Shown here: in pieces, positions 22,601 to 58,301 of the stretch
How positions within the stretch are numbered: the first letter of the stretch is position 1
Layout of the letters: each line of letters opens with the position of its first letter
Assembly: GCA_947561715.1 (NCBI GenBank)
Contig: OX387201.1
Span: forward strand, 13,344,001-13,408,000
DNA from: Ascidia mentula
Taxonomy: Eukaryota; Chordata; Ascidiacea; Phlebobranchia; Ascidiidae
Length of the DNA stretch: 64,000 nt
Reading direction: 5' to 3'
Notes under the pieces: model-generated
What the model saw: the letters and a program-made list of their open reading frames with translations, nothing else
Database searches by the model: none
What the model was told of the DNA's origin: nothing
Program-made: the position numbers and the translations under genes

Positions 22601-24322
22601 CTCATGCTCTTCACACTTGGACTCGACAGTCAGTTCACCATCCTGGAAACAGTGAGCACAGCCATAATCGACTCCTACCCGAGGCAATTGAGATCACGAA
22701 GATGGCAACTCATGTTGTTTCTCGCTGTTATTATGTTCTTGCTTGGCCTCGTCTGTGTTACAAACGTAAGTCCACCAGCTACATTAATGCTTTTTGTGTG
22801 TATCACAACGTAAGTACGAAAAATATGAGAATAAATGGTTACGTAATTAGGCAATCACGCCTGTAATCGCGATAAGGTTGCTTGTTTTGCTGTCCTTTTT
22901 GCAACATTACAGTTTATTTGACATGAAAAACGTATGTAGATTTAACTATTCGTTGTAATTATGCAAACCCTCTGACCACCACCATTTATAGCATGGTGAG
23001 AACTTCACATAGTTGAAACCCAGTATTACCTTTATTTCTAACTGCTTTTACCAAACTGCTTTAGACGGGAATTTATTGGGTGAATCTAATCGATCATTAT
23101 GCTGCTGGTTGGGGTTTGCTCCTGGTTGCCGTCTTCGAGCTTTTCGGTGTTTGTTACATCTACGGTGGAAACAGGTTTATTGAGGACATAGAAATGATGA
23201 TCGGAAAGAAAAGCTGGGCGTTCTGGTTATTCTGGAGAGCTTGCTGGTTCTTCATATCACCTTTACTTTTGACAGTAAGACCATTTTTGCTTGTGCAGAA
23301 TCACGACAACTTTAAATCACTACATGAAACCAAATTTTCTAAAACAGTCTTTGGTAAAAATGATATTATGATTTACTTGCATATTTGTTCCATAACAACA
23401 GAAACGGGAGTTAACTATATATTATTATAGGTTATCTCTTGGTTGCCAATGCCTAACAATAGTATAAACCTTGCGGATATATAACACATGATTTTGTCCT
23501 ATAGATTTTACTGAACAGGATAAGATTAGTTTTTTGTTTAACCAAATGCCAGTCCAACTATTTTTCTCGCCTTGAAGAAAGCCAGTTTGTTATCAGTCTC
23601 CTGTTTCGTTCTCAACTATTTAGAAAAAGCAGCCATGCGTGCATACGGCAAACCGCACCCCTTTCAGCAACGTATACGTCATTGCTTTGGCGCACATATT
23701 CAGTTGCATAAAAAAGGGGCTTCAGCAAGTCGGTTCCCAGTGTCTATAACATGAAAAAACATTATACTATTTGAATTCTCTCCAACATTGGTACAACTTC
23801 TAGGGCACTGAAATGATGCTTGTTTTACTATTAATTTTAGGCTGTTCTTGTTTGGTCTTTGGTGACTTTTGCCACTCCAACTTATGGTGATTACACTTAC
23901 CCACCATTTGCCAATGTTATTGGATGGCTTATTATAGCTGCGGCAGTTATCTCTATTCCGCTATTCGCTGGTATTGCAATCTACAAAAGCAAAGGCAACA
24001 TTTTCAAGGTAACATTCTCTGCTGAAATTTTGTTAATAATGGCTAACCGAGAGAGTGGATATGCAAAAAATTTATAACTTACTTATAAAGTTAAAGCCTA
24101 AACAACAACACTTTTATATTTTTCTCTCACCAGGCTGGAATGGCAACTTCGGATTGGGGTCCCTACCTGAAACAACACCGCGGCAGTCGATATGCCAACA
24201 TGGACGAACCACACGAGGCATTGGAAATTGTGAAGGAAAGAGCTGATGCCAAGAAGAAGGAAAATGGGTCTGAAAATCCGACTTACAAGGTGGATGACGA
24301 AATGGCACAAACAAAAATGTGA
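19656..24322 (+). CDS. Na+/Cl--dependent SLC6 transporter, glycine/neutral amino-acid clade
   Basis: A plasma-membrane symporter of about 12 spans. Exons: 19656-19667, 19778-19904, 20012-20143, 20477-20641, 20710-20817, 20972-21086, 21285-21423, 21566-21706, 22126-22354, 22521-22765, 23065-23274, 23841-24008, 24134-24322. They total 1,980 nt (659 aa), all in phase. The TM1 signature is [15 protein letters not shown] (from residue 26), with GGGAF starting TM2. The extracellular loop 2 motif [10 protein letters not shown] is followed by several N-glycosylation sequons. LTLGLDSQF marks TM8 and [11 protein letters not shown] the cytosolic tail. These resemble SLC6A5, SLC6A9 and SLC6A14 more than monoamine transporters; the TM1 monoamine aspartate is absent. 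The N-terminus is very short, unlike GlyT2. The paralogue and substrate cannot be settled by eye. Copy B of the hammerhead retroposon sits in intron 8. Confidence 0.93.
21728..21895 (-). mobile_element. Hammerhead-ribozyme retroposon, copy B
   Basis: A 168-bp insertion in SLC6 intron 8, just past the donor at 21707. It is bounded by a perfect 13-bp target duplication, CAAAAAATAAATC (21715-21727 and 21896-21908). Read on the minus strand, it begins ATAAGCAATGTGG and ends with the ribozyme plus an 8-nt tail. This is the simplest full-length form seen here. It has no reading frame, no tRNA-type promoter boxes that I can find, and no poly(A) tail. Confidence 0.85.
21736..21788 (-). ncRNA. Type I hammerhead ribozyme (copy B)
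   Basis: Identical over all 53 nt to the copy-A ribozyme (6082-6134), in the opposite orientation. On the minus strand: stem I arms 21788-21782 and 21742-21736, CTGATGA 21781-21775, stem II 21774-21762, GAAA 21761-21758, stem III down to 21744. Cleavage is predicted between 21743 and 21742. The gene runs on the plus strand, so the ribozyme is antisense to the SLC6 transcript and should not cut it. Confidence 0.88.
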
Positions 24323-35850: not shown

Positions 35851-37990
35851 CTAATAACACATTAAAAACACAAAAAAATAAAACGAAAAGACACCAAATG
35901 CAAAAATTAAAGAAAGCAACTTCTGTTGTGTTCTTATAATGTTTTCGTCACAAACTTTAATGTAATGCTTTGCTTGTTGTTCGGAGGAATCTAGTGCAAT
36001 TTGAAAAGCATTTTTTGCTTCAATGTACAACTTAATTGCATTAATGTAGTTAAAAGTCATTTCGTAAACGTAACCAAGTTTATACAACGAAAGTCCGAAA
36101 ATTTCAAAACAATCTGCACTTTTTCCAAATCGATTCCGCATTAGGTTTATTGCTAATGTTAACGGCATCTCTTGCGACTGTTCATCGTCCAGGACAGATA
36201 AAACATTCTGAATTGATATCAAGCATTTGACCTCAGAAATACATTGAATTCCCTTGTTTACTTTTGTCAGACCTGCTACTTGAAGCCGCAATTTTTCCAG
36301 CCGAGGAATGATGTAATTCATTACAAGATGTTGCTTTGAAGAAAATGGATACCAAGTATTGTCCAGAAATATGTTATTGGTGCAAGTCCTTCTGCGCACG
36401 ATGCAATTTCTGTTGCATGACTTTCCACATTTTACTTTGTTGTGCTAAGCTCTGTTGCCAATTCATAAAATAAAAATGCTGTTGCATGTTTGTTAGAGAC
36501 ATCATTAAATTCGGCGTATTTCCATAATTCAGCAGATAACTGCTTTTCTGTATGCTGTATCAGTTTTTCTTTGGCTGAAATTGCCTTTTCAAATGAGAAA
36601 CTCTTCAAACCATCGACGTACGTTTGAACGAGAAATTTTGTCTCTTCTGTATTCTTAAAGAACTCTAAATGTGACAATGTTAATTAGCAATAAATGGTTT
36701 ATATTTCTTGTCAACAAGATATATGATTACCAGTAAAATGCGGCCTCATGTATGAATTGGCAAAAAGTAAAAAAGTGTCTTCCGATAAATATCAACAATA
36801 TTATCCCAACTCCAAAGCATATTATCGAACAGCTTTCTGTAAAGCAGAAACCTGCAAAACAAATATGGAGATTGTCATGAAAAAGTTCCAGTTACTATCA
36901 CAACATTTGTTCCTATACCCTCTTCTACTTCCTTCTTGTTAATTTTCTGCACTTTCTTCATATTTGATTTATGCTTTTTTGATTTTTTACGGCGTGTGTA
37001 TCTTAACTTGGCTCCCGCTCCCGCTACCCCTGCCGCACAAGTGCTTGAATCAATAATCGCTTGTAAATTTTAATACGGTAAAGATATATAAAACGTAATA
37101 TACATTTTAAAAGTAAGAGATTAAAATTATTGTTTAGATTCCACAACTTTAACAAATTAACCTTGCACTTTTTCCAAACAAACAACTTCGGTCGTGACTA
37201 ATTTTGTATTTGTTGCAAACCGCTTACTGGTTTATTGCAGTTGTTTTTTCACCTGTTTTAATTTGTTGTGTGTGACGTTCGTCCCGAACTACTTCCACGT
37301 GTTGCGCTTCACTGCGGGTCACATTGTTATCATCGGCAAACACACTTCTTTCCATTTTTGTTGCTGTAAATATGTTAGGTGTTAATGTAAACAAGGGGTT
37401 TTCGGTGTGTGTACACAAAAAATTGCAACCGTTTATTTCTTGCGGAATGTTGACAGTTTCATTTTCAGTTGGATTTTCTTGCCCAAGATTTCGAGTCAGG
37501 GTTGAACTCTGTGACTCTCCCACGCCTTCAGTGAAAAATACATACCGTAAACATGTTTTCACAAAAAAAGGTTATTTCACATTACCTTCAAATCTTCCGG
37601 TTTTTGTGTTAAAATGATGAAGGGAAGTCATTACATTTTGGTTGTTTGGATGGTGGATTGTTAAGTCTATCGCACTCAAAGCATCAGTAACATGGTGCCG
37701 GATTATCTCTTTATTTTGTATGCTCAGAAGTTGCATCAATTGATTTTTTACATCAAACATCTTTGGACTGAGGGTAGGATTTTGATTCCAACAAGCTTTC
37801 ATGTTTTTTTTTGGCTTTATCGAATGATATTTTGTCCGTAATGCACCAACCTTCCTTTTGTCGTTGAAGGACGTCAAGACATGGTCTGTCCCCTTTGCGT
37901 ATGGTGCACAAAATGGACTCCAGATTGCCTAGTGGATAAGGCCGTGATCCACCCATGACCACATAGACTACTATTCCGTAAAAGTGACAT
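35851..37990 (-). pseudogene. Broken third copy of the RIPK-like kinase-TM-TPR gene
   Basis: Recognisable parts in order on the minus strand: kinase C-lobe (GIVVYVVMGGSRPYPLGN, then CWNQNPTLSPKM) at about 37990-37615; linker exon near 37560-37430; membrane-span exon near 36855-36735; helical tail 36670-35851. The whole N-lobe and catalytic loop are missing. The C-lobe is split across two frames. The tail frame ends early at 36432 and resumes in another frame near 36380. The next copy to the right (38902-41700) is its closest relative, so this is a truncated tandem duplicate. Its 5' break abuts a fragment of SNRNP70 sequence (37989-38052). Confidence 0.75.
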
Positions 37991-38052
37991 GTTTTGCTCA
38001 ATAAACAAGTGTTTGGAATAAAACGAGGAAATAAAGCAAGAACCTTCTCATG
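37989..38052 (+). repeat. Displaced fragment of SNRNP70 intron 11/exon 12
   Basis: ATGTTTTGCTCAATAAAC (37989-38006) matches SNRNP70 intron 11 at 35005-35022. The following ACGAGGAAATAAAGCAAGA block matches exon 12 at 35062-35099. An internal deletion joins them, and they sit exactly at the 5' edge of kinase pseudogene copy 3. This suggests a local duplication that took part of the neighbouring gene and has since decayed. Confidence 0.65.
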
Positions 38053-38574
38053 ACATCAAATTGTTTAGTCTGGTTTACCAGGCTTAATTTTCCTGTTGTC
38101 TAGCAGCTAAAGCAATTGACCTGAAACAAGTTCTTTCTGAATGCGCGAACAAAAGGCAGATCCATTACAAAATTACCGTTGAGTGAGAATTAAGTGGGAA
38201 TTGAATAGCTGTAAATAAAGCGACTGCCCTTTCTAAGCGAGTTTTCCAAACCTTGCTTAGCTTTCCAAAAGAACATGGACAACAGTTTTCCGAGTATTGC
38301 AATCAAACAAACCCAAAGGTAGGCAACAATCATGTGTTAGGTTATACTTCGATTCAGTAAGCAGTAGCATTCAATAGCGTGTCTGATTAGAATGAGTTGG
38401 AGATACAGTCGCTCTGGAGATAGACCTGGTGATTGGTTGATTGGTTAAAACTGGTCACGCATGATCGACACCAGGAAGTATCGTAAGTAGCGTTTCAGCA
38501 GCGATATATACAGCGAAATAATACGAGGAAAACGTGGAATATATATTTAAGTCAACAGTTACTTTGTACAGGAA
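38053..38574. other. Spacer before orphan signal-peptide exon
   Basis: About 520 bp without recognised content. TATATA strings occur near 38505 and 38540, just ahead of the frame at 38575. Confidence 0.4.
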
Positions 38575-38773
38575 ATGATTGTTCTCATTAACTTGTTAAC
38601 GTACACGTCAGTGCAAGCTGGTGTGCAAATCCCATTAAGATCAAGGGGATTCGTATTGTCCATTTTCCCAGAAAGTCGCTCATGGTCGTACAACGATGTA
38701 ACCGTGAATGCCGCTAACAACACTCATGTCCGCTGCACTTCAACACGTGATACATTCTTCATACAGATGTCAG
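38575..38773 (+). CDS. Possible first exon of a secreted protein (orphan)
   Basis: An ATG opens a 66-codon frame that begins with a plausible signal peptide, MIVLINLLTYTSVQAG. A short domain start follows (RGFVLSIFPESRSW ... VTVNAANNTHVRC) with two N-x-T sequons. It ends at a good donor (CAG/gtaata at 38773). No continuing plus-strand exon is seen before the kinase at 42465. The pattern loosely recalls the start of IgGFc-binding-type domains, but that is a guess. It could be a relic left by rearrangement of this duplicated region. Confidence 0.3.
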
Positions 38774-38901
38774 GTAATACACAAAAGTTATTAAACACTA
38801 CAGTCTAGCTGTGTACATACAATTTATAACAAAACGCTTTAAGGTGACCGTCGCTTTGTCGACTATATACAGTAGGCTACATAATAATATCAGACGTTTC
38901 A

Positions 38902-41700
38902 TTATAACAACCATCTGCTTGGATCTTGCTGTAGTATTTTTTGTTGTATTCTTCCAATGCTGTTTTCACAATAATCGATGTCACTTTTGGTTTGTTGTTT
39001 AGATGAATCAAGTGTCATTCGGAAAGCCGTTTTTGCGTTAAGATACAACACAACAGCATTATTATAGTCCAAAGTCATTTCGTACACGTAACCAAGTCTA
39101 TACAGCAACGTTCCGTAACTTCTATGTGTTTCCACTTTGTCCCCAAATTGCTTCCGCATTGCTTTTATTGCTGATATTAATGGAGCCTCTTGAGACTGTT
39201 GATCGTCAAGGGCAAAGAAAAGGTCGCAAATTGATATAAGACACTGGACTTCTGAAATGCACTGAATGTCCTTGCTTACCTTCGTCAAATTGGCTATTTT
39301 AAGCCGTAGTTTTTCCAGTAAAGGTATAATGTACTTTCGTATAAGACGTTGCTTTGAAAAAGTTGGAAACCAAACTTTGTCCAGAAATAAGTTCTTGCTG
39401 CTCTTTGCAAGTCCTTCGGCACAATATCCGATTTCTTTTAATTGGTCGTCTTTAATTAAATCTTTTGTGCTAAACTCTATCGCCAATTCGTAGAATAAAA
39501 TTGCTTCTACATGTTTCTTATATGTAGCTTCGTTGTGTTCCGCAAAGTTTCGTAATTCGGCTGGTGTAGTGACAAACTGCTCTTCTATACGCTGTATCAG
39601 TTTTTCTTTGGCTTCAGTTGCCTTTTCAAATGAGAAACTTTTTATACAATCGGTGTACGTTTGAATCAGTCTTTCCGTTTCTTTTGTATTCTCAAAGAAC
39701 TCTAAATACGCCAAAAATGACAAAATTTTATGTTTCTTTATATTTCAATAAGATATGTTTACCGATAAATTGTGGTCTCATTGCAAAGTTTTCAACAAAC
39801 ATTTGTTTTCCGGCCAAGTACAACAGTATCATCACAATTCCCAAACACAATAGCAAAAAGCTTTTCTTTATGCAGGAACCTGTGATGCAGCACAAACATG
39901 AAAGAGCATAAGATTAGTGAAAATGAGTACTTATCACTGCTGTCGCCACAAATATAAAAACATTCTTACCCGATTGTTTTTTTTCTTCGTTAGTTTTTTC
40001 TTCTTCGTTCTTATTGTTTAGTTCATCTTGTTTCAATTTCCGAGGGCCTCTGTAACGTGGCGCTGTTCCGGAAGTTCCTGTAATTAAAAAGCAATTAGAG
40101 AGGAAAAAGTTTGTAAAAGTTAAGTATACCAACAACTTCAAAACAGAGGAAGGGATTGTTTGCCTAGGGCTAACTGGTAACCTAGCAGGCACACAGATTT
40201 TTTTCTGTTGCAACTTGTTTCGTATTCTTTCGAAATGCTTACTGTTGTATTAGAGTTGCCTTACCGGTTTCTTTTGGCATTGCGTGATCATTGCCCTCTT
40301 CGGTAGAAGCTTCCAAGTGCACCGTTTCATTGTGAGGATCATTTCCATCAACTGCAAAAACATTTCTTTCAGTTTTAATTTTAATGACTAGGTATATGTA
40401 AACAAAGTCTTTTTCCGGTAAAAGTATGCGTGTACTTTGTAGACCAAAATTGCAACCTTGTGTTCCTCGCGGAATGTTGACAATTTCATTATCCGTTAGA
40501 TTTACATCGTCAAGGTTGTGAGATAGCATCAAATTTTGCTCCTTTTTTACGCCTTCAGTGAAAAATACTTAAAATTATTGCGCAATATATAGGTTTGAAC
40601 TTACTTTTACCTTCAAATCTTTCAGATTTTGTGTTAAAATGATGTAGGGGGGTCATTACATTTTGACTGTTTGGGCTGTGGATTGTTAAGTCAATCGTAT
40701 TCAAAGCATCAGTAACCTGTTGTCGGATTCTTTCTTCATTTTGTTTGCCCAGAAGTTGCATCAATTGATCTTTTATTTGAAGCATGTTTGGCCTGAGGGT
40801 AGGATTTTGATTCCAACAATCTTTCATAATTTCCTCTACTTTATCAAATGATATTTGGTCTGCAATTCTCAAACCTTCCGTTTGTCGATGAAGAACTTCA
40901 AGACATGGTCGGTCCCCTCGGCGTATGGTGCACAAAATGGACTCCAGATTGCCTAGTGGATAAGGCCCTGATCGAGCCATAATAACATAAACTACTATTC
41001 CGTACCCGTATGTGTCGTGTTCTTTTTTGGGGCCCATTGACATTGCTGCCAATCTTTCTGGAGGTGTATAAAACGGTGTAATTTCTTTCTTTTTCAAGAG
41101 GGTCGTTGCGGTTGATGTTGTAATTCCACTCAAATCTGCAAGTTCGGCACTTCCAAAGTCGCCAATCTTGCATCGTAATGCAATGGAAAGTAATATATTT
41201 TCTGGCTTTATATCCAAGTGAATTAAACGCTTATCTCTAAACGAATTGTGGATAAATGAAATGGCGTTTGCTGTGTCGGTAAGCATACGAATGCGTAAAG
41301 GAACTCCTAAAGGAATATCTGGATCTAGTGCGATTTGCTTTAGATTTCCAGCAGCACAATATTCCATGACAATTCCAAGTGCATATGGCCATTTAACAAA
41401 CCCATAAACACGTACTATATTCTCGTGATTAGCCTGTAGTAGATATCCAAGTTCTTTCTCGTATCTGAAAGGCAATTACCATGCATATACTTTTATTGTG
41501 TTTTGCGGATCAAAGCAATATAGGAATTACTTTTTCTTAATGAGCTTTTTGTCCATCAAGCCTCCAGTGACTCAAAGTATTTTGATAGCCAGTGTGTTGT
41601 AAACCCCGTGTTGCCCGACGTCAACATCTCCATAACTTCCTGAACCGACTTCACATGATGTTGTATCGCACAAAATGTCTTCAGCATCAAACTCACGTAG
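38902..41700 (-). CDS. RIPK-like kinase with membrane span and TPR-like tail (one in-frame stop; possible pseudogene)
   Basis: Exons: 41531-41700, 40611-41464, 40457-40552, 40265-40351, 39970-40077, 39763-39879, 38902-39701; a short first exon was not found. Kinase marks are GSGSYGDV, AIK, HLDIKPEN and GDFG, then TPFYTPPERL and CWNQNPTLRPNM. A linker of three small exons leads to a span, SFLLLCLGIVMILLYLAG. A 266-codon helical tail follows, with TPR-like features near its end (LGYVYEMTLDYNNAVVLYLN). The first listed exon is the same length as its partner at 42536-42705. It has TGA at 41574-41572 where the partner has lysine, two codons after the N-lobe lysine. All other exons stay open over more than 2 kb, so the stop is recent, allelic or an assembly error. 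Divergent partner at 42465-45393. Confidence 0.7.
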
Positions 41701-42464
41701 CTACAAAAACAGTGTACATATGGTCATGTTTCCAAATTCATTGTGCATTTCGCAAATAATTACCTGTCATCCTTTTGTATGACCCCGACCTTGTTTCAAA
41801 ACTACGTTTCAAACAAGTTTTTCTCACACACAGTACTTTGTAACGAAGTGCCCATTGATGTGTGAAGGACACGCCTGGACGACGTCAACGAACCTTTTTG
41901 AAAGTCGAAGTTTTTTGTCACATTTGGCTATAGCGAAGAAGAACAGGCAACGGACAACGCCATTCTCTATAAAATGAAGCGTTTCATCGCTGCAAAGCTG
42001 ATATTTGGTTTGAGGTAAAATATGTTGGTCAATAATCCCTATAGCGTTGTTGAGGTCATTGAATGAAATGCTCTTTGCTTTACGCACTTTCGAACATTTA
42101 AACAACACTATGCATAATAATTTTTTTGCCGTACATAACAGCTTTAGACTGAACGTTCCATTTCCAAATGATGCCACCAGACCTGAACAAGATTTTTTCT
42201 GTTTGCGAATCGCGTTTTTTTGGCGTGACGTCAAGTCTCGCATGATTGTTTTTGAAATAACACTCCACGTTGCGCATTTATTCAACCATGCTGAGGTACA
42301 ATAAGGGGAGAGCAGAGTTTCGTTGACATAAGGGCAAACAAAACAGCTTGAGAGCTCATATATGTGACAGCTCCTAACACATAGTATTGAAGGGTGAAAA
42401 CGGTTTGGGATGTTATGTTTTAAAATGGATTTGTAATTAATCCGTGCAAGAGTTTACCAACATT
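41701..42464. other. Shared upstream region of the two divergent kinases
   Basis: About 760 bp between head-to-head genes, presumably a bidirectional promoter. It contains a 153-codon minus-strand frame (41824-42285), rich in Lys and Cys and of no recognised family. Its possible donors do not fit the phase of the exon at 41700, so it is not called a gene. Confidence 0.45.
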
Positions 42465-45393
42465 ATGCAAAGCAAGAGCAAGGTAGTGTTGTATTTTGCT
42501 GTTTTTTGAAAAACTTGTTAAAGTTGCTGTTGCAGTTACACGAGTTTGATGCCGAAGATATTCATTGTGACCTCGAAAAGAGTGAAGTTGGTTCGGGAAG
42601 TTATGGAGATGTGGTAGTTGGACAACATGATGTTTTCAATACACTTGCCATTAAAATATTCAAAATATGTGGTGGAATTAAAGACAAAAAGCTCATCAAG
42701 AAAAGGTCAATTAGAATTTGTAGATTAATAATCTACTAATAAATACTAATAAATACCAAAAACAAATTCACTTCAGATTCAATAAAGAAATAGGATACTT
42801 ACAACAGGCCAGTCATGAGAACGTTGTTCGAGTTTACGGTCACGTAAAATGGCAACACGCAATTGGAATTGTTATGGAGTATTGCCCTGCTGGGAATTTA
42901 AGGCACTTCCTTCTAGATCCCGATATTCCAAAAGGAATATCCCTCTCAATAAGAATGTTGTCCGACATTGCCACGGCAATCGCATTTATTCACAACTTGT
43001 TCGAGGACCAACGTTTGATTCATTTGGACATTAAACCAGAAAATATTTTGCTTTCTCCGGATTTAAGATGCAAAATTAGTGATTTTGGCAGTGCCGAACT
43101 TGCAGCACTGAGTGGACTTACAAGTACATTGAATAGGGGAACACCACACGGAAGGCAAGCAGCAATCACCCCCTTTTACACACCACCTGAACGCCTAAGA
43201 AATATGTCAATACTACCAAAGAAGGAGCACGACACGTATGGTTATGGAATTGTGACATACGTTGTTTTGGCTCTTGCAGCTCCTTATCCAGCTGGCGATA
43301 TGGAAACAATTATATATTCGATAACACAAGGTGCAAGGCCGAACATGGCGGTGGTACAAGAGCGAGTCCAACATTTCGATGACCAGCATGACAAAGAGAC
43401 CGTTGAGAATGCTGTTGAAATTATGAAAAGATGCTGGGATCACAATCCAGACGAACGACCAAACATGATTGATGCCAGAAATCAAATAAAGGAGCTCTTG
43501 AGTCAACAACATTTGGCTGTAATTCGACATCAAGTTACCAATGCTTTAAGTTACATTAATGTAAACGATCATTGTCCCGGGACTAACAATCGACTTGTTC
43601 CTCTTCATAATTTCTCCACACACACCAGAAGCTTTATGGGTATGTATACCAATCTAAATTACCTAAGTTTCTTTACATTTTATATTTAAGAAGTTTAGCC
43701 AGTTGACTTTGAAGCTTCAGTAACTTCATTTTGTAAACTGTTTTGGCAATAAATTGGCTATAAAAGCTTCCTAAACAAATTTCACATTCATTATTGGCGA
43801 GAAAATGTTTTTTATTTAAAAGTTGTTTTTTAATTGCAAAAAACATATTTGTTTCTTAATATTGCATTATCACCAAGAAATGAATATGAATGTGAAATTT
43901 ATTTGTTTTCGAAAACCGCAGGCGGTGCGTATCCCCAACCGGTCAACAATGACATTCGTGTACCCCAAAATCCTTTCCAGGAAGGCGATTTGGTCACAAA
44001 TCCAGGTTTGTTCTCGTTTTAAATGTAGGTAGTTATAGGTATTATTACACGTACAGTCTTTTAACACAACACTTTTAACACTGGCTTTAAATGTTGCAAT
44101 TTTCCCAAACTTTTTAGGTACAGAAGGTATATCTTTACGTCGAAGAGTGCAAACACCTTCGCGGGATGCTCAACAAATAAATAATGATGCACGGCCCATC
44201 ACTGCTCATGCAACAAACTTCGGTATGTATCGCAGTATTTGCCCGTAGATTTGGGTCCAAATAAATTGTCTGCGGTTTTGGTTTCGCAGTTTTAAACATC
44301 TCGACGCAATACCTGAGTTTAGTATAATGTCTTTTCATACAAATAACAACTGTTAAAATGGAAACTAAAACCACAAAATGCAGGAACAACATATTGGATC
44401 GTTGCTATCGTGGTGATGATAATGATTTCGTTGGCAGCAATTTTTGTGATGTTTTATCCGACATCTATGGCGCCTCTTGAAACCAATGCCAAAAGCAAAA
44501 TTTTACCAGGTGATGTTTTTAAAATATTTGTTTATCAGAATGTGTTGAAAGTCGTTGTTGATTTCAAAACTTTTTTGACAGATTATACAGTTGTCTTTGG
44601 CGGCAACAAACAAGCAACACAGCTTGTCAAAGCACACGGAAACTCTCTGAGAACTTATAGGTTTGACCAGGCTACTTCAGTATACAGACAACTGTTGCGG
44701 TTATATATTGTTCCTTCTGGCGCTTCAGCACTTCATATAAAAGAAGTAGCAAAAAAGCATCATGAAGCAAAGTTGTATTTAGAAGCGATTTTATTTTATA
44801 AAATGACCGCTGGACTTCTTTTCAATATTCCTGTAGGCCGAAAATCAGCAGAGAACCTAGAATCCTGTGTTATCGCACTTAAAGAAGTTTCCATTGAATT
44901 GTTGGGGCATAAAGAAATAAGGCCTTTGGCTGGAAAAGTGGTGATTGTTAAAAATTATGTACAACCGTACATAACTGATGTCATACAAAAATTGGACAAG
45001 GTTAAAACTGTGGATAGAACTGTTTTAATGTATTTTATACTAAACAGCCAGCTAGCATTACAACAACTAGATTTACTGCTTACCAAACATAATCATGAGA
45101 GAGCATCTTTACAACTTGAAAGTGACGTCAATTTTTCTCATGAAAAGCTAAAAGACATGCCACATGAAGCACAGAAATCTGAACAGTACAGTGAAATGTT
45201 AAAAAAGCTTGGAATCCTATGCGAACAAAATGCCCGTCTTAAAGACGCCGAACAATATTACGCGCTAGCGGTGCAAGCAATTCAAAAGGTTGAAAACATT
45301 AACCAAGAGCGAAGAAAACAACTTCAACGAACTTACGAAACAAGCTTGCGACGAGTTCAGGAACAACAATCCAACTTTGTTACAGATAAATGA
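42465..45393 (+). CDS. RIPK-like Ser/Thr kinase with central membrane span and helical/TPR-like C-terminus (intact copy)
   Basis: Exons: 42465-42482, 42536-42705, 42777-43639, 43922-44005, 44118-44222, 44384-44509, 44582-45393 (2,178 nt, 725 aa). The last intron (72 nt) is inferred from the paralogue, since reading through it also stays open. Kinase residues are complete: GSGSYGDV at 25-32, AIK lysine K46, alphaC FNKEI glutamate E67, HLDIKPEN with D147, SDFG at 164-167. The HRD arginine is leucine, which suggests activation-loop phosphorylation is not needed. CWDHNPDERPNM ends the C-lobe. N- and C-lobe style (MEYCPAGNL, FNKEI) recalls RIPK/MLKL-group kinases. A span of about 21 residues (418-438) follows a proline/asparagine-rich linker. 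The tail (456-725) is helical and holds KDAEQYYALAVQAIQ, a TPR-like helix pair. No signal peptide, so the kinase is probably cytosolic. No death or RHIM domain is seen. Confidence 0.85.
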
Positions 45394-46005
45394 TAAACAC
45401 TGATGCATTATTCAAGTTGACTGGTGTTTGTGATCAAAAACCCTCAACAAAAGCAAAAAAGTTTTTTATTTCAGTTGTTAGTGTAGCAAAACAATGCTTT
45501 CTAGTACGTTTGTTTCCTTTGTTAATACCGGATTTACTTTTTAAGGGCATGTGTATGCATTGTGATGACTATTTTTATGAAAATGTAGAGCTTTTCACAT
45601 ATGTTTTGTGTCGTGTTGCGTTTGTCAAGTTAAAAAAATGCAATTGTTTGTAATTATGAATATTATAATGTTCATTACATTGTGTTGTACTTGTACATAT
45701 TATAATCAAAAACCTGCTTTTATAGTTTTCTTGCTTGTATAATTCTGTGGATTGCGGATTGTACGCCCTGTTTTTTGTTCGGGGACATCTGCGTGTTTAT
45801 AATTTATGATTGATTCTATAATTTAAAAAAAACTGCCATGGCCAATCCAAGTCCCGGACTATTGTAATTTCGGTTTAATTGATATTGCTTGTTTTTATTC
45901 CAGTTTATATTTTGCATCTGCTGGTTTCATTGTGTAGTTTAGCATTTGCTGGTAGTGAATAAAACCGGACCCACATCAGTTTTGTTTTAGTTTAAATCAG
46001 AAAAC

Positions 46006-46880: not shown

Positions 46881-47843
46881 CAAGAGGTTGTGTATAATGC
46901 ATTTCAACTGCACTATTGCGTAGCCTGCGCACCGAAGATCAGACAGAAACTGTTCTGAATTGCTTACGAGCATCTCGAACTGCCAGATTTGGAACACTTG
47001 ATCCAATGTTTAAAATTAAAGTATGTTGCACTTCCTAACCATTTGATTTGGTCGTGTTGAATAAACCATTGCATTTTATTGAGACAAACGAGGTGTTTGA
47101 CTTTGCGGGAATTACTTTTTTAGTCTTGTCAATAAATTATATTTCTCTCATTACCAATATGCCTGTCAGGCTTTTTGAAAATGAAGTTGCAGGATTGAAA
47201 AGACAACTTGGCAACTAGCCAACAACTACCTGACAGTCGTTAAGCCAGCGTTATCAATGCAAGATTGTGTGTGGGTAATTAATCAAAAAGATCGCCAAAA
47301 CAAACTAATATTTTTGCAGACTCCCAACCCAGCATACAAAAAACAACAAATCTTCTTTATCGACGAATTATTATCTAAATTTCGAAGTTTGGACACAACC
47401 ATGGTCTCTCACATCTGTTTGCACATGTCCTTGTGTCTAGCTTAGGACAACTTAGATCATAGACAAATCGGGTTGCAACTCATTCATAAGTTTGGTTTTC
47501 AAAACTGGACCACTGCACACTGATTTCAAATATGTTTATTCATATTATATTGACTTAATTTAACCAACAACTTGAACATTATAATTGTTGTTTTATTGTT
47601 GTATGGTGATGAATCAACTGTAAGTTCAGCTTTGCAGAGCCGTCGAAATATCTAAAAATAAAGCTGTTACTTAGTGATACAAAATAGTTCATTGTTTTAA
47701 TGTTAAAATAATAATGCATTTGCAAAGAAGCTTGGTAAATATGATCTGACAGGCAACAGCAAGATTTTCTGATTCTAAACTCCTAATTGCGCATTCCTGT
47801 TCAAAAAATGGGCTCAGAAAATAACTTTGGATGTTGTAATTAC

Positions 47844-50800
47844 CGACTGAACAAGTTGTTCCTACAAAGCCAGGTTGACATCGACAAACGAATCCATTTT
47901 CGTCATCGTTGACGCAACTTCCACCGTTGTGGCAAGGATGAGACTCACATCTGTCCACTGAAAAGCAAATCACTCAAAATATGTAAAACCAAGCTTAAGT
48001 ATATAGGCTATATAGGCAGCTCAGATCGATTTATTGAGAGAAAAATATATTTCGCCTAAAACGGCATCATCAGTTTCTCCATTTACCAAAACTGCCAAAA
48101 AGGAAAAACAGAAAGGAAAAAGTCAAGAATCTAACAGCCGAATATTTTTATAGTTTTTATTAATTTTTATTTATTTTTAGCTTGCGTAACCTTTTTGCGT
48201 TAGATTCTTGACTTTTTCCTTTCTGTTTTTCCTTTTTGGCAGTTTTGGTAAATGGAGAAACTGATGATGCCGTTTTAGGCGAAATATATTTTTCTCTCAA
48301 TAAATCGATCTGAGCTGTCTACAGATCGCTGTTTTGGGATTTTAATACATTATTATTGATACGGTGTGCGATCGACAGCCTGCCAGGGGCCTTTGGTTTT
48401 TTGATCCAGTTTTGATTTACTAATCACATAGGCTATATAGGTTTACAAAACGCTAATGCACCTTTTTCGCAAATTTTTCCGGTATAACCTGAAGAGCATT
48501 GACACATCGGACCACCAACGAAATTGGAACAACTCCCGTTGTTTTTACACACTTTTCTCGACCAGTTGCGTTCCTCTAGCAAAATAGAAAAATATTTCAA
48601 ATAAGCAATAGGCAACTATTTCCAGTTAGACGGCGAGGTTTTATTCTAAATATTAGGTATTTGTAGTGCAAAATCGAATTGATGTGTATATGGACAGAAA
48701 CAATTTTCCACCGCCATTTAGGATATTTATAAAAAGGTACAAGCCTAACACTGCTTACCAAACCACGCCTTCCAAATAATGAAATCTCCAACATCATCTC
48801 TACCGTAGTTATATCCAGTTTCTTCAACTTCAGCCTCAAACCCCCACGGATGTATGTTGATTGCGTTTATAGAAAATTTAAGCCATTTTTTTGATCTGTG
48901 TTTCGCAACTACTTTGACTTCGCTTGCAAGACCTCTATGACATTTTGGGTAGATCACAACATATAACTTCTTACGACTACTTCCATAAACACTCCCAAAA
49001 TGAGTAACTCCAGTTATAAGTCCTAAATATAAAAAGAAAGTTACTTCTAGATAATGAAGGTGCAAAATAACTTACTTAAGGAACAGTCAACTCCCCCATA
49101 CCCCTTTCTGCAAACACACTTGTAACCCTGCGGTGTGTTTTCACACGTCCCACCGTTCTTGCAAGTAGTTCCAGAGCAATTGAGAATTTCTACAAAAAAA
49201 AAATTAAAACGTTTGGATGTGATGAAGAACACTGGATCAAAGAGGTATGAGGGTACGATCAGGTCAAATCCACAACTACCGACTAAGCTAGTAAAAGCGA
49301 CTAAGTTAGAGTTGTCGTGGTAGTTGTGCTAGGAAAGTTGCGCCCAAATTACCACACGCTCTTTTGGATTTTTGGCAGGTAACAACAGCCACCGAATGTC
49401 GCTGCCACTGTATTTAGATCAAACAGAAAGGCCAACACAGTTGTCATACTTAAAAACTTGTTACAATCAAGGCATCATATACGATTTTTACCTTCTTGGC
49501 ATAATTGACCTTTGTACCGCGGTGTGCAGAGACAATAAAAATCATACTCGTTTACGTTGATACACATTTCACTATTTTGACATGGACTGTCGGCAAAATT
49601 TGATGTGTCTGAAAAATTTTGAAAGCAAGATAATATTTTAGTAAATCACAGTAAAAAATTGCTGCGTGTGCGGAAACTGGAGCAAATCTCCTCAAATATT
49701 TTCTTTTCGCACAACTCAGGCCTTTAAAATTTGGTGCAGTTGTAGCCTACAGTCATTATAGCTCATTTGTTCTTATGTATATATGCTGTTTTTTTATGTG
49801 TTTGTCTGCAAGCCAAATTATCATTCTTTGATGGCGAATCGGCGCATATACTTACTGAAATACACTGCGTACTTAAAGATGATCAGCTTTTTAACACTGG
49901 ACCTTTGCCACTTTTGGTGAAAGAACATTGCAAATCCGTTTCTGTACACTTGCGGTATGCTCACAGAATAATCTTTTTTGTGCTTTTTGATATTGGTAAG
50001 CCTTCCTTCTATTTTTACAGGCTTCGTGCTGTAGCAGGAATTAAATAGGAAAAGTTTTTTAATAAAAGTTGTGCGCAATTTTGGTCTGAAGCGAAAAACA
50101 CCGTGGACGACCCCTGTAAACAAAATGTAAGTTTTAAACGCGCATTTCCAAAAAATCACATTTTTACAGGTTGGAATTTCAATCTTTAGGTATTGTATGT
50201 ATATTGTTTGCCAATAATAAGTTTCATTCTCAAATTCAGTATTGCGTTGATTCAAATAGAAACAAGTGTGACTGAGGTTTTGCCATCAAATAAAAAGTAG
50301 ACTAACCGTATTCACAACGCACTCCTTCAAATCCAGATGCACAGAAACACGTAAATCCTGCATCACTTTCAGCACAAGTTCCACCGTTCAAGCAAGGTTC
50401 GTTGGCACAATAAGATAAAACTAAATAGCAAATGTTCTTTAACCACTATATTTTCGCATACAAATTTAAACAGCGGTAATTCTTGCCTGTCTCGCATTGC
50501 TGTCCAGTGACGTGTGGTGGACAAAAACATTCGGGCCCACGTAATGTGTTGGAGCAGGATCCATTATTTGCGCACGGTGTTTCAACTGAGGCCTCGGAAT
50601 CTTAATAAAAGTAGTGTTATATAGGTTTTAAGGCAAGTTTAAAACTGCAAAGTTTAGCTGCAAAATTTGGGTACAAAGAGCACAATTTCGTTTCTCCAAG
50701 GTTACCTTTTGGTTTGCTTAAAATCACTAACCGCGTTGTGGACATCTACGTTTGTTAAACGCAAAGAAGCTCAAAACATTTAGGAAATACTTCATCAGTA

Positions 50801-53800
50801 ATCAAAATAAATGAAAATCATGTTATTACCATTTAGATATTTACTTACCAAAGTACGCCTGCCATTGAAACGATACAGGTACACGATTCCAATCTATCGA
50901 TAAATTCGACAACCGTGACAGGGACACCGTAAAACCCCAGATGTGAATTCCAGCAAGTTGAATGTTAGCCACAGAAGACACCTGCCCATCTATCCACAAA
51001 CTTACATTTGACGCAAGTTTGGTTTTGCACGAATCGTAGAAAACGTCCAAACTCTGCTTGTTTGAGGTCCATGCATCACTCAATAAATTTCTCCGACCAG
51101 AAATGTAAACTGCAAACAAATCGATAAATTGTTAAAGTGGCGTGTCCAACTTTTTAATCCATGACCTTTTTTAAACCGACTTTTGCCCTAAAATCTCGGT
51201 GGTGAGCATTTTCTGGTTTTCTCTGGTTTTTCAGATTGTTCATCCATCGCAGCAATATGTTTGTATTTTAACAGTCTGTTTTTCTGGCACATTAAAACGT
51301 AACTTTTTATTCACCGACTTTTCGCCTGTTATCCAACAAGTTTGTATTGTGGGTTACACCAATATGTAATCCAAAATATTCTCAGAGACATTTTACTTTC
51401 CGTTTTGGAATTTCTTTTTTCCATAAAATCCGCGAAATGTTTTTGTTGGAGAAGTGTCTCATACCAACTATATAATGTTGTATGAAAAATGTGAGGGTAA
51501 AATCTGATAAAATTACCATTTGAGCAGTTTATTCCTGCGGTTCCTGCCGGACAAACACAACTATAACCACTATCTTCTTCTGTGCAGTTTCCAGAGTGAC
51601 ATGGATTCGGGTAGCAGTGTTTCAAGGCTGCAAAACGTATTCATTATTCAAGTTTTAAGAAACATAGTCTGTAAGAACTCAATATCTCCCGTCAAACAAG
51701 TCTATTAGACAACATATTTAGTCCAGAATCCAACGATCTTTAGTTTGGGACAAAGCAAGAAACAAGCAATTACGCTCTTACCTATTTCGCAAAACCGACC
51801 ACTGTAACTTTCATTGCATGAACACACTCTTCCGTCATCAATAACATTTGTGCATGTTTCACCATGATAACACGGATTCTTACCATAATTTATATTTTCT
51901 GAAAATATAAATCCATGTTAATTTCAATTTCTACGTTACTATAACTATGTGACAATACAATACTTCTAATATCATGGCACGAAAAACACCCAAAATTTCC
52001 CAAAGTATTCATGTTAAATACTTTAATAGCAACGGTGTATAGAAAATTTCACTCACCAAAAGTAGCGTCGTAGTCAACATAAACCTTGAAATACCTCCAT
52101 GCAATACTGGATCGATTTGAAATTAAAATTTGAACTTTAAAACCCCACGATGAAATGGATAGGACAGTCGAGTTAAATGTATGTGATTTATTATCCCAAC
52201 CCGTGTGCGAGACATCGTCCCAATACACCCAGCCTGTAACAGTTGTATTCACGTGACGTGCTGATCCGTTAAAGCATTTGTTGTATGGAATATTTACTAC
52301 GACTTCATTTTGTTTGGCAGATTGGATGCGTCCCGTGACTCTGTAGGAATCATGATGAATCGGATCTGAAAGTGTGTCGATGAGTATTCTGTGTTGATTG
52401 TTTCGAAAACAGCGCAGTTGAAATGTAATTACATATCATGAATGTTCACGTTAAGGTGAAACATCGTAATCGTATTAAAATTTTCAGGATTGCCTATCAC
52501 ATTTCCACCAAAAATTGTTTGTACACTTTTACGATAAGAATGTTTACGTTAATCAAATTAAATGCGATGCGCTAAATTCAACGAGAAAATTATATCTTTC
52601 ATTGTTATGTTTACCTTTTTGGCAGCGATATCCCAAAAAGTTATCGGTGCATTTGCATAAATACGAGTTCTGCATATCCACGCAAGAACCACCATTCATG
52701 CAAGGGTTTGATGCGCAATGTGGAATATCTAAAATATGCAAAAAAGGCACTAAATTTCGTGTGTTTTTTCCACAGGCCACTTGCTATCGAAAAGACATTA
52801 ATGTAGATTCTTGGTAATATTAAATTAAAAATCTACGCACATGTTTCACACAACCTTCCAGTGTATCTCTCAGAACAAACACAAGAATGTCCACCATATG
52901 TGTTGATACACATCCCAAAGTTCCAACATAGTTTGATGTCAGTTAATGTTGTCGCAACTACATGCAAAATACTTCATACAATCTTGTATCAAGGAATTAT
53001 AACATGGAAACATTTAGTATTGTGGGTGTTTTTTGGTGCGGCGCTGAGTTGTATACGTATATGTAACCTTTTACATTTTTTTCAATTTTAATTGTAACAA
53101 AAAATGTGTAAAATTGTACTTTGTATGTTTTATTTTGTTCTGAACATATATATTTTTTAAATTGTAGAACATTTGCACCTCGGTACGGTTTTCCTGCGAT
53201 GCAAATAACATACCGTAGTGTGCTTTCCAGTGTAGGGTCAGGTTAAAAGCAATGTTTGACGGGACAGAATGTTGAAATATGATTGCAACAAATCCCCAGT
53301 TGTAAATCACAACAGGTCCAACATCAAATGAAGCATCACGTTCATCTTCTATTGTAACGTCAACCGCATGTGGAATTTCTGCCTTGCAAGCCGGGAAAAG
53401 TGTCGTTACACTTATGTTACGTGGTGTTGCATAGTGGGGTTCAATAAGTACGTGTTCATTGCCGTCCGTGCATCCTTGAAACAATTGCCACATGTTTAAG
53501 AAACCAATAAAACAACACACACAATGTGTAGTTTAGAAACCAAACTTTGCAGAGGTAACTTACTGTGATCACATCGTTCCCCTTCATATCCATCTTGGCA
53601 AACACATTTATAACCATCCACAACTTCAACACAACTTCCACGGGCGCAGGGATTACTAAGGCAATGTACAAGACCTAAATAGTGCAATTCAAAAGGATTT
53701 AAAACTTATACCGGCTATTTTGGGTATTATTGTAAGTAGTGTACACGACACTTTATTATGTTTTTTGTATAATATAAGGGTTAGTGGTCCAATTTTTTAT

Positions 53801-56800
53801 TTTTTTTTATTCTCCAAACTCTTTTGCCCTTAGCATGAACTGACATTATTACTTCCTATTGATTTGTGGCAACAAATGGCACGGAACAAATCAATCAATG
53901 ACGTACGCATTTGACAAAATTTCCCTCCGTATTCCCGGGGACATCGACAAATTGTACTTTTGACCCTGTTTGAACATCTTGCCCCGTTTTCGCAGGGTCC
54001 TAACAACATTTCTGGAAAATCTACAATAAACAAAAATTTTCGAGCTTTGGTTTAAAAAAAAATAATTTTAGCAAATTTTTCATTTTCGTTCAAATAAAAT
54101 TGCAACTAACTTGAAATACTGTTTTGTTTTCACATTTCGTTGTACAAAAAACAACAAAGCAAACAAATGTGTAAGGTGTAAGCAAAGTGTGCACTCTGAG
54201 TACCGAAAAAAGCTGTCCACTGTAATTTCATTTTTGGCAACGATCCATCACTGGCATTATAGTCGGTCCTTTGGACTTTGACACGAAAACCCCAGGAAAG
54301 TATTTCCACGATGCTTGTGTTAAACGTGTATGGAAAGGTTTTGTCGACCACAGCAATTGCAGTTACTTCATTGGCTGTTCCGTTCCGGCATTGCGGGTAA
54401 GCAACATCAAAAACGGCTACTGGAAACCACCTCTTCCAACGTGATATGCGGAATTCTCCACTCACTTTTGCCACTGTAATAAAAACAGACGTTTAATTTG
54501 TTTTCCCCAATTGCTTGGTCAATTTTATAAGTTTGAATGTTCTTGAAATGTTTGCACTGCAGTTCAATTAAATGTGCTCACGACTATTCACGACACAGAC
54601 GATATACGCAAATACTTTCCCATGTCGCATTGCAATCCGCTTGTGCCTTTAGGACAACTGCAATTGTAGCCGTTTTCTACTTCCGTGCAGTTTCCGCTGT
54701 TGCAAGGGTGTGGATGGCAATAAGTTAAAGCTGCAATTAGCAAAGCCTGAATTTAAACTTCATTCCGTCGTTCGAACTCTGGAAACTAACCTGTTTCACA
54801 CTTATCTCCTGAGAAACCTGGTTGACAGACGCATTTTATTCCATGTTCGGGTATGTTAACACAGGTTCTTGTATGACTGCCGCATGGACTTACCTTAAAC
54901 TTTCGGGTTTCTGTTTAAACAATTAAATGAGGAATTGACACCTTTTGTAGTAACATTTGTTTCGGGACAATTCTAATATTATGTTCAGTTACCGCCGCTA
55001 AAATTTTTTTGCAGTAATATTTACTAAACTATATGCAGAAGTTGTATCTGAATTTCAGATAAAATTAACGAAAATTATCTTACAAAGGTAAAGTTTATAT
55101 TCCATTTGTTTCGTCACAACAGTTGGTCGGTATTATTTTTTTCTCCATCAAACAATAATAACAATTATATGCGTGAATAAGTTTTTATGTCCAAAACAGT
55201 GCAGGAAAATAAGAAAATTCATAGCATGTGTTATTAAACTTACCAAATGTAGCTGTGTAAAGGAGCTTTAAATCAAAAATCCATCCGACATAACTTTGCT
55301 GGATGAGAGCGCGGAAACCCCACGGATAAATACCCAAGACAGTGGTATTAAGAGACATCCAAAATCTTCTAGGTTCAGGTATTGTCAAGTTAATTGATGT
55401 TGCAATTTGGGAGTAACATCGGTCATAAGCAACATCAACCACTTTCTCCGGTACTTTGTAAATGTAAAATGAACCCACCTCTGCCACCGATTTAATACCC
55501 GGGTCTGTGAACGAAAAAACTTTTTAGAATGTTTCTAAATTAAAACCAATTATTTTCTATTGCAGTCTTGTACTACACTACTTTGATACAAAACATCAAA
55601 ATAAAAGGTAGTAAAAACCCTTACATTTTTCGCATCTGCGACCAGCAAACCGAATGGAACATTTACATTTATACGAGGAGTCGGTTGAAATGCACTTTCC
55701 CCCGTTCATGCATGGGAAAGATACACAGTGGGACAATCCTGCATCAAGAAAACTTTTGTAAACATGGATGTTGAACTATTTTCCTGACGTTCCAAATGTG
55801 TTTTTTTTGCACAGTTTTGTTATCGATTTGTAAAGCTAACTGTACAGGAAATATTGTAGGAAAATTAATGTGAAAAATTTAACATGTCGATCTGACAGTC
55901 GTAATCAGCAAATAGATCTGCGAAATGGTCAAACTATTTACAAGAAAAATACATATTATCACATGGTATAAAACCAACTATTGTGATGCACAACCCGGCT
56001 AAACGCCGGGAGCTACCAATCTTATGAGATTTACGTGTTTCGCAGAATGTTCCTGTCGCATACGGAGGACAATCACACCTCGTGCCGTTGACTTCACTGC
56101 GACAAACTCCATCGTTCTGACATGGGTTTGTGTAATTGTTGTTCAAACCTAAAATGTGTGAAAAGTTAAAATAAAGTTCGTTGGAAAGTACAGTTTTATT
56201 GCCCCTTTATATTCAGTAATGGTACAGACCATATCGGATCAGCATATCTATTGGCCAATACATACATATTGATCATTCAAAACAGTGTTTCCAAAACGAT
56301 GGTACGCGTACCACTGGTGGTACGCGACGTCATTCCAGATGGTACGCGAACACCTTTCCGTCATTACCGGATACAGTTCGAATTTAAAAAATGTAAGTGA
56401 TCTCAAAATGTTTGTTACTTCATCCCCTAGTTTACTTTGTAACACTCAACTAGGTGGTACGCGTGGAAATTGTGTAACCTTCAAGTGGTACGCAATCGCA
56501 AAAAGGGTGGGAATCACTGATTTAAAATAACGTACAACAAATTATTTACATTACATGAAACAGACTTACCAAATATCGCTTTCCAATCCATGACAGTTGA
56601 GCTATTGTTTTCTTGACTTTGTTTGTTCGAAAGTTTCCACACTTCAAACGTAAAACCCCAGACAAAAATATTCTTAACGATGACTTTGAAATTAGAGTTA
56701 CTGGGGAGAGACAAACTAACATCCAAAGGTGGCGCCTCTTTGCAAAACTGAAACTCTATTGTCATATTCGTGCTGTTTTCAGGAAGCGTCCCGAAAGTGA

Positions 56801-58301
56801 TGTTGGTTTGACCGTCCACAGCATCTGAGGAAATGATTGTTGTGAGTGTTCATTCTTTGAAAGTAAACTTCGAAGTCAAAAGGAGCGTTCTACATTTAAA
56901 CGCAGTTTGCATTGATTTCCACGTCATGTTGGTTATTAAACTCTTTTGCAAAAAGGCTCTTTTATAAATATTTTTTTGAAGTTTTCATTTAAATCCACTT
57001 ATTAACATAAGTTTTACAAAGTTTAGGTTTACTATTTGAGCAATTCTTTCCAGCTCTTCCTTTCGGGCACGAGCATTTGTATCCATCCGCTAACTCTGTG
57101 CACTTTCCAACGACGCAAGGCTTTAAAGGACAGTGTCGCAATCCTGATGCAAAAAAACAGTAATATTAATTCTGCATCTTTAACTCGCTACAACCCAATA
57201 ACATCATTTAAACATTCATCTATTTTTGAGTGTCCGATAGTAGAACTGAACGAAATAAATGCGCATTGTTATGATTATGAACAACATACCACTTACTTGA
57301 CCACATTTTGTTGTTCCTGTGTCAACTAGTGCATTATTAGTTTTGTGGTACATTGTTGGGCAATATAGATACAACATATGTGCCTACAAGAGCTCGCATT
57401 CGCCTAATGAACTACTCACGTATTTCGCAAAATTTTCCAACATACTGTTGAGGACAGTGGCAGGTTCTACCGGTATGTTCATTGTTTGTACAAGGTGCTC
57501 TTCGGCGACACGGGTTTTTGTCAAATTTTGTAACATTTTCATCTTACAAAAAGAGTAATTTTGGAATTAATTGCTGTTATCGTCAGCATGTTGTTTATAC
57601 ACACACACTTTTTACAACAAAATTATTAGGTTATAAAATTTGAGGATTCCTAATTAATTTTTACTTACCAAATACCGCCTTCCATATTATATTAACGCCA
57701 TACTGCCTCCACTTGTGATTAACTGTGTCGATTCTTTCTACTTGAACCTGGAAGCCCCATGGATGAATACTGAGCACAACGGCGTTTAATCTTTCGCGTC
57801 GCTGCAAGTCGCTACTTATTCCGACAAACACATTCTGGGCCACACCAGAATAGCAACGATCATATGCCACCTTCACTATTCGTGGCCGGTCATAATGGTT
57901 CGATCCAATGAGCTTTGAGCCTCCAACCCAGTTACTGCCTATAGACCACATTATATTTTAATAAGCATGGATCCAATAAAATGGGTTATGTGCAGATGGC
58001 CATTGTTTCGACCTATAAATAGTGCAGCTTGGTGTGACTATAGTGGACGATCTTGCAAGCCAAAAAGCAAAGACTGTACTTTGTTACTGCCTGTAGAACA
58101 CATCATATTTTATTTGTATCATAAAAGAAGCAGTTAACAGTTTTGTTTTTGTCACAGAAGATAAAACTATAAAGAAGTTACAGTTCATGACGAGAGTAAA
58201 TGTAAAAAGAAATACTTATACTCACCCACTTTAGCCGTATTCAATCCATACGAACATTTAAACAGAAAAACAAAGTAAATAGCATTTGTCAGACCTCCCA
58301 T
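47844..58301 (-). CDS. Secreted modular protein: signal peptide + 9 x (WGF/H-lectin-like domain, 5-Cys EGF, 6-Cys EGF)
   Basis: Exons: 58226-58301 (signal peptide, from MGGLTNAIYFVFLF); then nine W-E-E triplets. 57669-57938, 57420-57542, 57033-57143; 56570-56824, 56035-56148, 55625-55738; 55244-55504, 54791-54910, 54608-54730; 54204-54473, 53907-54020, 53564-53674; 53214-53474, 52841-52957, 52615-52728; 52057-52365, 51782-51898, 51517-51627; 50849-51109, 50487-50600, 50307-50420; 49856-50113, 49492-49608, 49076-49189; 48759-49022, 48462-48575, 47844-47957. Every intron is phase 1; 4,561 nt, at least 1,520 residues. Each W domain (about 85-103 aa) has VAYDRCYS-like and HPWGF-like motifs and ends WKAxFG. 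That order and the single Cys recall H-type lectin domains (inference). First EGFs lack Cys1; second EGFs have six. The final exon is unsure (perhaps 47579-47745), so a membrane anchor cannot be excluded. Probably extracellular adhesion or recognition. Confidence 0.88.
48017..48317. repeat. Perfect 119-bp inverted repeat (foldback element) with hammerhead-like core
   Basis: Arms 48017-48135 and 48199-48317 appear identical as reverse complements, with a 63-bp spacer, inside the last mapped intron of the EGF-repeat gene. The right arm reads GAGAAA, CTGATGA (48261-48267), a GCC/GGC stem, GAAA (48281-48284), then TTTCTC, which pairs with GAGAAA. This is hammerhead order, but with one extra T before stem II and almost no stem III, so activity is doubtful. 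Confidence 0.8.
56283..56519. mobile_element. hAT MITE (GGTACGCG family), full-length form
   Basis: 237 bp, ends CAGTGTTTCC and GGGAATCACTG. Flanking octamers ATTCAAAA (56275-56282) and ATTTAAAA (56520-56527) differ at one base. It sits 50 bp from the WGF exon at 56570 in the EGF-repeat gene and contains several GGTACGCG repeats. Confidence 0.8.
57984..58110 (-). repeat. Decayed hammerhead-retroposon copy
   Basis: TGCAGATGGCCATTGTTTCG followed by GACCTATAAATAGTGCAGC, then a tail matching copy B (TGTGACTATA, CAAAGACTGTACTTTG). The CTGATGA core is lost. It lies in intron 1 of the EGF-repeat gene. Confidence 0.6.

Follow-up and report, generated by a model that had tools for sequence, protein, structure and literature searches.

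A nine-unit gene of predicted lectin-fold and EGF domains belongs to a large tandem family in the ascidian Ascidia mentula

The stretch of DNA analyzed here (the window) comprises 64,000 nucleotides of contig OX387201.1 from the ascidian Ascidia mentula (assembly GCA_947561715.1, positions 13,344,001 to 13,408,000). Exon-by-exon recovery on its minus strand yielded a gene composed of a signal-peptide-like exon and 27 domain exons (57938 to 47844), wherein a domain with a WGF motif (W) and two EGF domains (Ea, then Eb) recur nine times in the order W-Ea-Eb. All 27 introns are in phase 1 and are 53 to 504 bases long, and the donors are GT in 26 cases and GC in one (E7a). An initial annotation had proposed nine such units, one domain per exon and phase-1 introns throughout, and both the exon recovery and the profile matches described below bear this out. 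The features of the gene are as follows.

58226..58301, minus strand: start codon and signal-peptide-like exon (MGGLTNAIYFVFLFKCSYGLNTAKV), with an N-terminus that is hydrophobic by reading and a phase-1 donor, gtgagt
57669..57938, minus strand: W1, H-type-lectin-fold domain according to its predicted model, one Cys
57420..57542, minus strand: E1a, EGF with five Cys, lacking Cys1
57033..57143, minus strand: E1b, EGF with six Cys
55625..56824, minus strand: unit 2, with W2 (56824-56570), E2a (56148-56035, five Cys) and E2b (55738-55625, six Cys)
54608..55504, minus strand: unit 3, with W3 (55504-55244), E3a (54910-54791, five Cys) and E3b (54730-54608, six Cys)
53564..54473, minus strand: unit 4, with W4 (54473-54204), E4a (54020-53907, five Cys) and E4b (53674-53564, six Cys)
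52615..53474, minus strand: unit 5, with W5 (53474-53214, two Cys), E5a (52957-52841, five Cys) and E5b (52728-52615, six Cys)
51517..52365, minus strand: unit 6, with W6 (52365-52057), E6a (51898-51782, five Cys) and E6b (51627-51517, six Cys)
50307..51109, minus strand: unit 7, with W7 (51109-50849), E7a (50600-50487, five Cys, GC donor) and E7b (50420-50307, six Cys)
49076..50113, minus strand: unit 8, with W8 (50113-49856), E8a (49608-49492, five Cys) and E8b (49189-49076, six Cys)
47689..49022, minus strand: unit 9, with W9 (49022-48759), E9a (48575-48462, five Cys) and E9b (from 47957, six Cys), drawn as read-through
47592..47597, minus strand: AATAAA, candidate poly(A) signal

Exon candidates were taken from a script-made list of open phase 1-1 stretches between AG and GT, and the edges of E3a, E3b, W4, E7a, and E7b were placed by reading. 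Profiles built from the 9 W and 18 EGF exons were run against the whole window and gave exactly 27 matches, all on a single strand and in strict W-E-E order, with no W or EGF match elsewhere in the 64 kb. Because nine units stand in register and Cys, Gly, and Phe are invariant in all nine W domains, a chance origin of the pattern is not at issue. The three-exon duplication that had been suggested as its source is supported. In W8, NGF replaces WGF. The predicted protein has 1571 amino acids with 17 Pfam EGF stretches, and the six families matched at E ≤ 1 are all EGF models. The extracellular kind of protein initially envisaged is likewise supported. The intron between E9a and E9b also holds an inverted-repeat element (48013-48430) with arms of ∼123 bases, which resembles a miniature inverted-repeat transposable element and has dozens of similar genomic copies.

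The interval first assigned to the gene (47844..58301) holds at its start exon, and its other end possibly lies further on. Position 47844 marks where E9b meets a weak donor (gtaatt), and the gene may either splice on from there or read through as ...CSVGNYN...LKQ to a TGA at 47691-47689, followed by AATAAA at 47597-47592. Three paralog ends were inspected by eye. One (locus L053) reads ...KCSVG-stop, with a gttagt that could alternatively serve as a donor; another (L038) reads ...CYYRN-stop with AATAAA behind it; and the third (L041) is compatible with splicing to a short hydrophilic tail. No membrane segment was seen in any of the three, and the family products therefore look secreted.

The WGF domain of the initial annotation is a real repeat that matches no Pfam family, but its predicted fold is not without kin. 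An AlphaFold model of W1 has six strands, and its best Foldseek matches are H-type lectins and their fold relatives, namely snail agglutinin, discoidin, coral SLL-2, and the tips of pyocins and tailspikes. The predicted models of both W1 and W8 show the six-stranded antiparallel β-sandwich of the H-type fold, and W is accordingly predicted to be a divergent H-type-lectin-fold domain. Taken together, the nine-unit architecture and this predicted fold are the part of our account in which we have high confidence. The W domains had no credible match among PDB sequences, and the best of them, to an AI-designed TIM barrel (E = 0.007), was taken as chance. A genome-wide search with the H-type lectin profile PF09458 gave six matches, none over the cut-off; one of these was translated (L010) and was rejected, as the locus encodes Ig-like repeats by eye and the match lies on the opposite strand. 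Scans with an SLL-2 segment, intended to enlarge the H-type profile, found no relatives in bacterial genomes, where a two-row alignment was also used, or in phages.

The two EGF domains, labeled alike in the initial annotation, are not equivalent by their cysteine counts. All nine Ea domains in the window have five Cys, lack Cys1, and do not meet the six-Cys EGF spacing, whereas all nine Eb domains have six Cys in that spacing. When exons were scanned alone, PF00008 scored over its cut-off for five of five Eb and three of four Ea. Each W of the window carries one conserved Cys, to which W5 adds a second near its N-terminal end, and the conserved residue occurs in all 69 W domains of the family alignment. 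We scored the rule by script in the window and 15 loci fetched from the same genome (148 EGF and 70 W matches). Cys1 was absent from 59 of 60 EGF domains that directly follow a W and present in 81 of 82 that follow another EGF; the remaining matches had no readable pattern (two) or no upstream neighbor in the locus (four). Only the two rule-breaking EGF domains were reread, the other 140 being script results, and reading cleared both: the odd EGF of L040 turns out to follow a diverged W (YRICFRN...HGF), and the script had missed a five-Cys EGF lying between the W and the six-Cys EGF of L047. The same dependence is seen within a single locus (L043), laid out as three W-E pairs and then four EGF domains, wherein Cys1 is absent only from the three EGF domains after W.

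In EGF domains, Cys1 is disulfide-bonded to Cys3. The absence of Cys1 thus leaves Ea with an orphan Cys3, and since the adjacent W has an orphan Cys of its own, a W-Ea disulfide is the simplest reading. We consider it probable that the repeating unit is [W=Ea]-Eb, with the equals sign denoting this predicted bond. Cys28 falls in the loop joining strands 2 and 3 of the W1 model; if the strands alternate in direction, strand order (used here without coordinates) would place the Cys28 loop and the C-terminus at one pole, where Ea begins. The W=Ea pair is kept in all fetched loci with an EGF after W and occurs in at least three layouts: [W=Ea]-Eb repeats, three [W=Ea] pairs plus EGF domains, and one W=Ea plus twelve or more EGF domains. 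Whether this pair constitutes a new extracellular module, in which a lectin-fold domain donates the missing first cysteine of its EGF neighbor and which has been kept through shuffling and expansion, we regard as an even call.

The nine-unit gene is not alone but is one of many paralogs. A single W query matched the genome 116 times at E ≤ 10 (87 at E ≤ 0.001), and two W queries pooled gave 134 distinct sites, weak ones included, in 34 runs on contig C69, mostly at 14.7-15.6 and 18.18-18.19 Mb. Additional sites occur on C71, and C73 has a single weak one. Together, the two queries recover six of the nine W domains of the window, so these counts are lower bounds. Most sites lie in tandem clusters in both orientations, and the W-E-E order is kept in most of the clusters fetched. 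The window gene lies between two related loci, L047 (C69:13.62 Mb) and L048 (C69:13.30 Mb), each of which has, in the fetched stretch, a single W, a single five-Cys EGF, and twelve additional EGF domains; this is plausibly an older layout of the family. Three loci (L042, L049, and L050) have a lone W match and no EGF match. L051 (C71:7.87 Mb) likewise has no EGF match, and its four W matches each show two Cys in the part that was aligned; by eye, a C-type-lectin-like segment and a long tract rich in threonine lie nearby. L046 (C69:15.158-15.168 Mb) holds three W units matching the last units of the window gene, and plus-strand W runs resembling it occur at 15.13, 15.20, and 15.23 Mb of C69, although only L046 was read. 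Plus-strand runs of two W matches, similar in spacing, alternate here with minus-strand runs of four to eight, and the region resembles a tandem array of segments, some of them copied incompletely.

A comparison of unit trees, proposed with the initial annotation as a way to learn the order of duplication, was carried out on 69 W domains. The W8 (98/98) and W2 (95/85) domains of the window group with W domains of other genes with starred support, and W5 (91/92), W7 (96/72), and W9 (97/74) do so with lower support, in a tree with few columns and an unsettled bootstrap that resolves the other four window W domains poorly. A second gene, at C69:15.095-15.107 Mb, includes a signal-peptide-like exon of its own together with nine W domains, whose best window matches are, in order, W1, W2, W1/W3, W4, W5, W9/W6, W7, W8, and W4/W9. 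The same unit number thus ranks first at six of the nine positions and a close second at three. Genes at L038 show the order W1-W2-W3-W4, and L037 resembles two such blocks. Since unit identity is partly kept between genes, the unit order appears to predate gene copying; it seems that units were duplicated first, and that four-unit blocks and whole genes were copied afterward.

Young copies of these genes mostly look used and constrained. In three sets, comprising five, five, and four such loci, pooled dN/dS values were 0.18, 0.07, and 0.14, computed from Nei-Gojobori counts uncorrected for multiple hits, and non-exon divergence in the pools of these sets was three to five times exon divergence. 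Purifying selection is thus seen in three of the four sets compared. Such constraint speaks against a fast-diversifying receptor and favors a secreted product that is required in bulk or as stable variants.

Much of this has known counterparts. H-type lectins (Helix pomatia agglutinin or HPA, 2ccv; the C-terminal domains of discoidin I and II; octocoral SLL-2; PF09458) share with W a six-stranded β-sandwich of ∼90 residues, but W has no PF09458 match and has an invariant Cys predicted to pair with an EGF, and the window protein has nine such domains in one chain with EGF domains. One report describes H-type lectin genes as not expanded in molluscs and brachiopods and as combined with Ig in gastropods (PMC8878817), and others give five H-type lectins for Aplysia (PMC9334734) and a trimer and a hexamer for discoidin II and HPA, respectively (PMC5712786). 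The lectin-like domains of R-type pyocin fiber tips and phage tailspikes (6cxb, 4ru4, 4ru5, and 4y9v) have the same fold and gave the highest VIA Z for W1 (10.5, with a root-mean-square deviation of 2.0 over 83), but they belong to phage or bacteriocin fibers, are 7 to 14% identical to W1, and lack EGF domains. A pyocin study names HPA, discoidin II, and SLL-2 as the nearest folds (PMC6116203). The ascidian egg-coat proteins HrVC70/HrVC120 and HaVC80 resemble the window protein in being secreted and in carrying long EGF arrays; according to the accessible text, which does not mention a W domain, these have 12 to 13 EGF domains and HrVC120 has a ZP domain (PMC9265791). The 1571-residue prediction had no ZP match at E ≤ 1 and so differs from an EGF array joined to ZP. 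Jagged-1 EGF2 (PF21795) is an atypical EGF that E6a matches just over the cut-off (27.6 versus 27); in Ea, however, Cys1 is absent systematically and, in the fetched loci, only beside W. Taken singly, H-type lectins, arrays of EGF domains, and duplication of phase-1 modules are already known. For the W-EGF-EGF layout we found no description in the open-access literature, which leaves most subscription papers outside its scope and agrees in this respect with the initial annotation; searches of the same literature likewise did not find the domain combination, the inter-domain cysteine hand-over, or the scale of expansion.

The reading we favor, with somewhat better than even confidence, is that the gene encodes a secreted multivalent protein of ∼1570 residues, consisting of a signal peptide and nine lectin-fold/EGF units, within a large tandem family. 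Each W would be stapled by a disulfide to its five-Cys Ea, the W Cys taking the place of EGF Cys1 and bonding the orphan Cys3, while the six-Cys Eb would serve as a spacer. Ea and Eb would form a rod with each W fixed to its side as a head whose outer loops are free, and nine heads per chain could confer avidity for repeated ligands. The likeliest ligands would be glycans, either microbial or those of an extracellular coat (tunic, egg coat, or mucus), with the family kept at least partly by purifying selection. Glycan binding by W is a tentative element of this proposal, and we would put it somewhat below an even chance. An arrangement of the nine heads as three intramolecular trimers was considered and is unattractive, given genes with four units and runs with eight.

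Several observations weigh against the secreted multivalent lectin. Neither PF09458 nor any other Pfam family gave a credible match to W (nine from the window and ten from paralogs, maximum E of 10). Alignment of W with H-type lectins by hhalign is weak (probability 4.5%, P = 0.009), with a score of 16.2, where the highest of 60 column shuffles reached 13.2; in this weak profile alignment, GF and the strand-6 Trp coincide. The VIA scores are close to the level that the tool labels common, W8 had no Foldseek hit at E ≤ 0.001, and the W1 and W8 models share one nine-row alignment. What we take to be the GalNAc contacts of snail agglutinin have no obvious match in W by eye, and the alignment is too weak to locate these positions. 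Because the units share a common descent, the cysteine counts (Fisher P ∼7e-38 for Cys1 presence against neighbor) are not independent events; given this kinship and near-identical copies (56 and 77 distinct sequences in the two EGF classes), they show long conservation. The splice site of the last EGF is ambiguous in both the window gene and L053, and the window read-through tail ends hydrophobic (19-residue mean of 2.11), so that the window protein may have a membrane or glycosylphosphatidylinositol (GPI) end. In the first set of young copies, one of ten pairs has exons diverging more than non-exon sequence, and a fourth set (three copies) has a dN/dS of 1.41 from 12 changes summed over pairs. 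Lastly, the loop motif RTD..GW.Q is, by reading, gone from most units of the window gene, and this member may therefore be more structural than its relatives.

That loss also bears on the strongest competing explanation, to which we give roughly half the weight of the favored one: a structural, non-lectin matrix protein in which W is a β-sandwich spacer that descends from an H-type lectin but no longer binds sugar, the family adding bulk protein to tunic, egg coat, or mucus. The failure of Pfam H_lectin to match would fit, as would purifying selection in three of four sets together with near-identical copies, which resemble dosage. Over 69 family W domains, however, the loop motif is fairly conserved (R in 69%, D in 53%, and W in 69% of filled rows), which a mere spacer would not need. 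It is improbable, in our estimate, that the W Cys and Ea Cys3 instead bond other chains in an assembly role. Alignment by eye (SPYCRPP against YDRCYSG) shows a Cys of snail agglutinin in the matching segment, and a Cys at a similar place there reportedly forms an inter-chain bond. In the fetched loci, however, both odd Cys lie in adjacent exons of one unit, for which an inter-chain bond creates no need.

A family of immune or allorecognition receptors diversifying between individuals would be in keeping with the finding that lectin-fold genes form large tandem clusters, in both orientations, and one report describes the EGF-repeat egg-coat protein HrVC70 as polymorphic and a candidate for self/nonself recognition (PMC9265791). 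This explanation is lowered by purifying selection in three of four sets (dN/dS of 0.07 to 0.18, the fourth having few changes), and the three paralog ends lack a membrane segment by eye; we judge it slightly less probable still than inter-chain bonding. Least probable, and in our view very much so, is that the nine units belong to several genes. The introns are short and the gene model was read from sequence alone, but a single open frame runs through all 28 exons, every junction being in phase 1, and the second nine-unit run has its own signal-peptide-like exon and a near-identical order.

Other genes were also seen in the window. Related protein kinase genes occupy both strands of 35854-46000 (Pkinase matches on the minus strand at 40558-41475 and on the plus strand at 42724-43686), each adjoining a long frame without a Pfam match, and a copy near 36-38 kb looks degenerate by eye. 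A methyltransferase gene (2274-3122, plus), an SLC6-type transporter exon (23065-23427, plus), and exons resembling dynein heavy chain (4472-9064, minus) were also noted. Genome-wide, two GH6 matches scored over the cut-off, on contigs of 20 and 23 Mb and one with an internal stop; they are consistent with a tunicate source, as tunicate cellulose synthase carries GH6.

These results turn an unnamed WGF repeat into a member of a concrete structural family, with a predicted lectin fold overlooked by sequence models and more than 100 copies, mostly on one chromosome-sized contig. Because paralogous genes retain unit identity, the sequence in which units and genes were duplicated can be read. If the predicted disulfide is true, the family would present a staple between neighboring domains, the cysteine set of one being completed by the other, and its products would be candidates for coat or mucus proteins in animals with a cellulose tunic.

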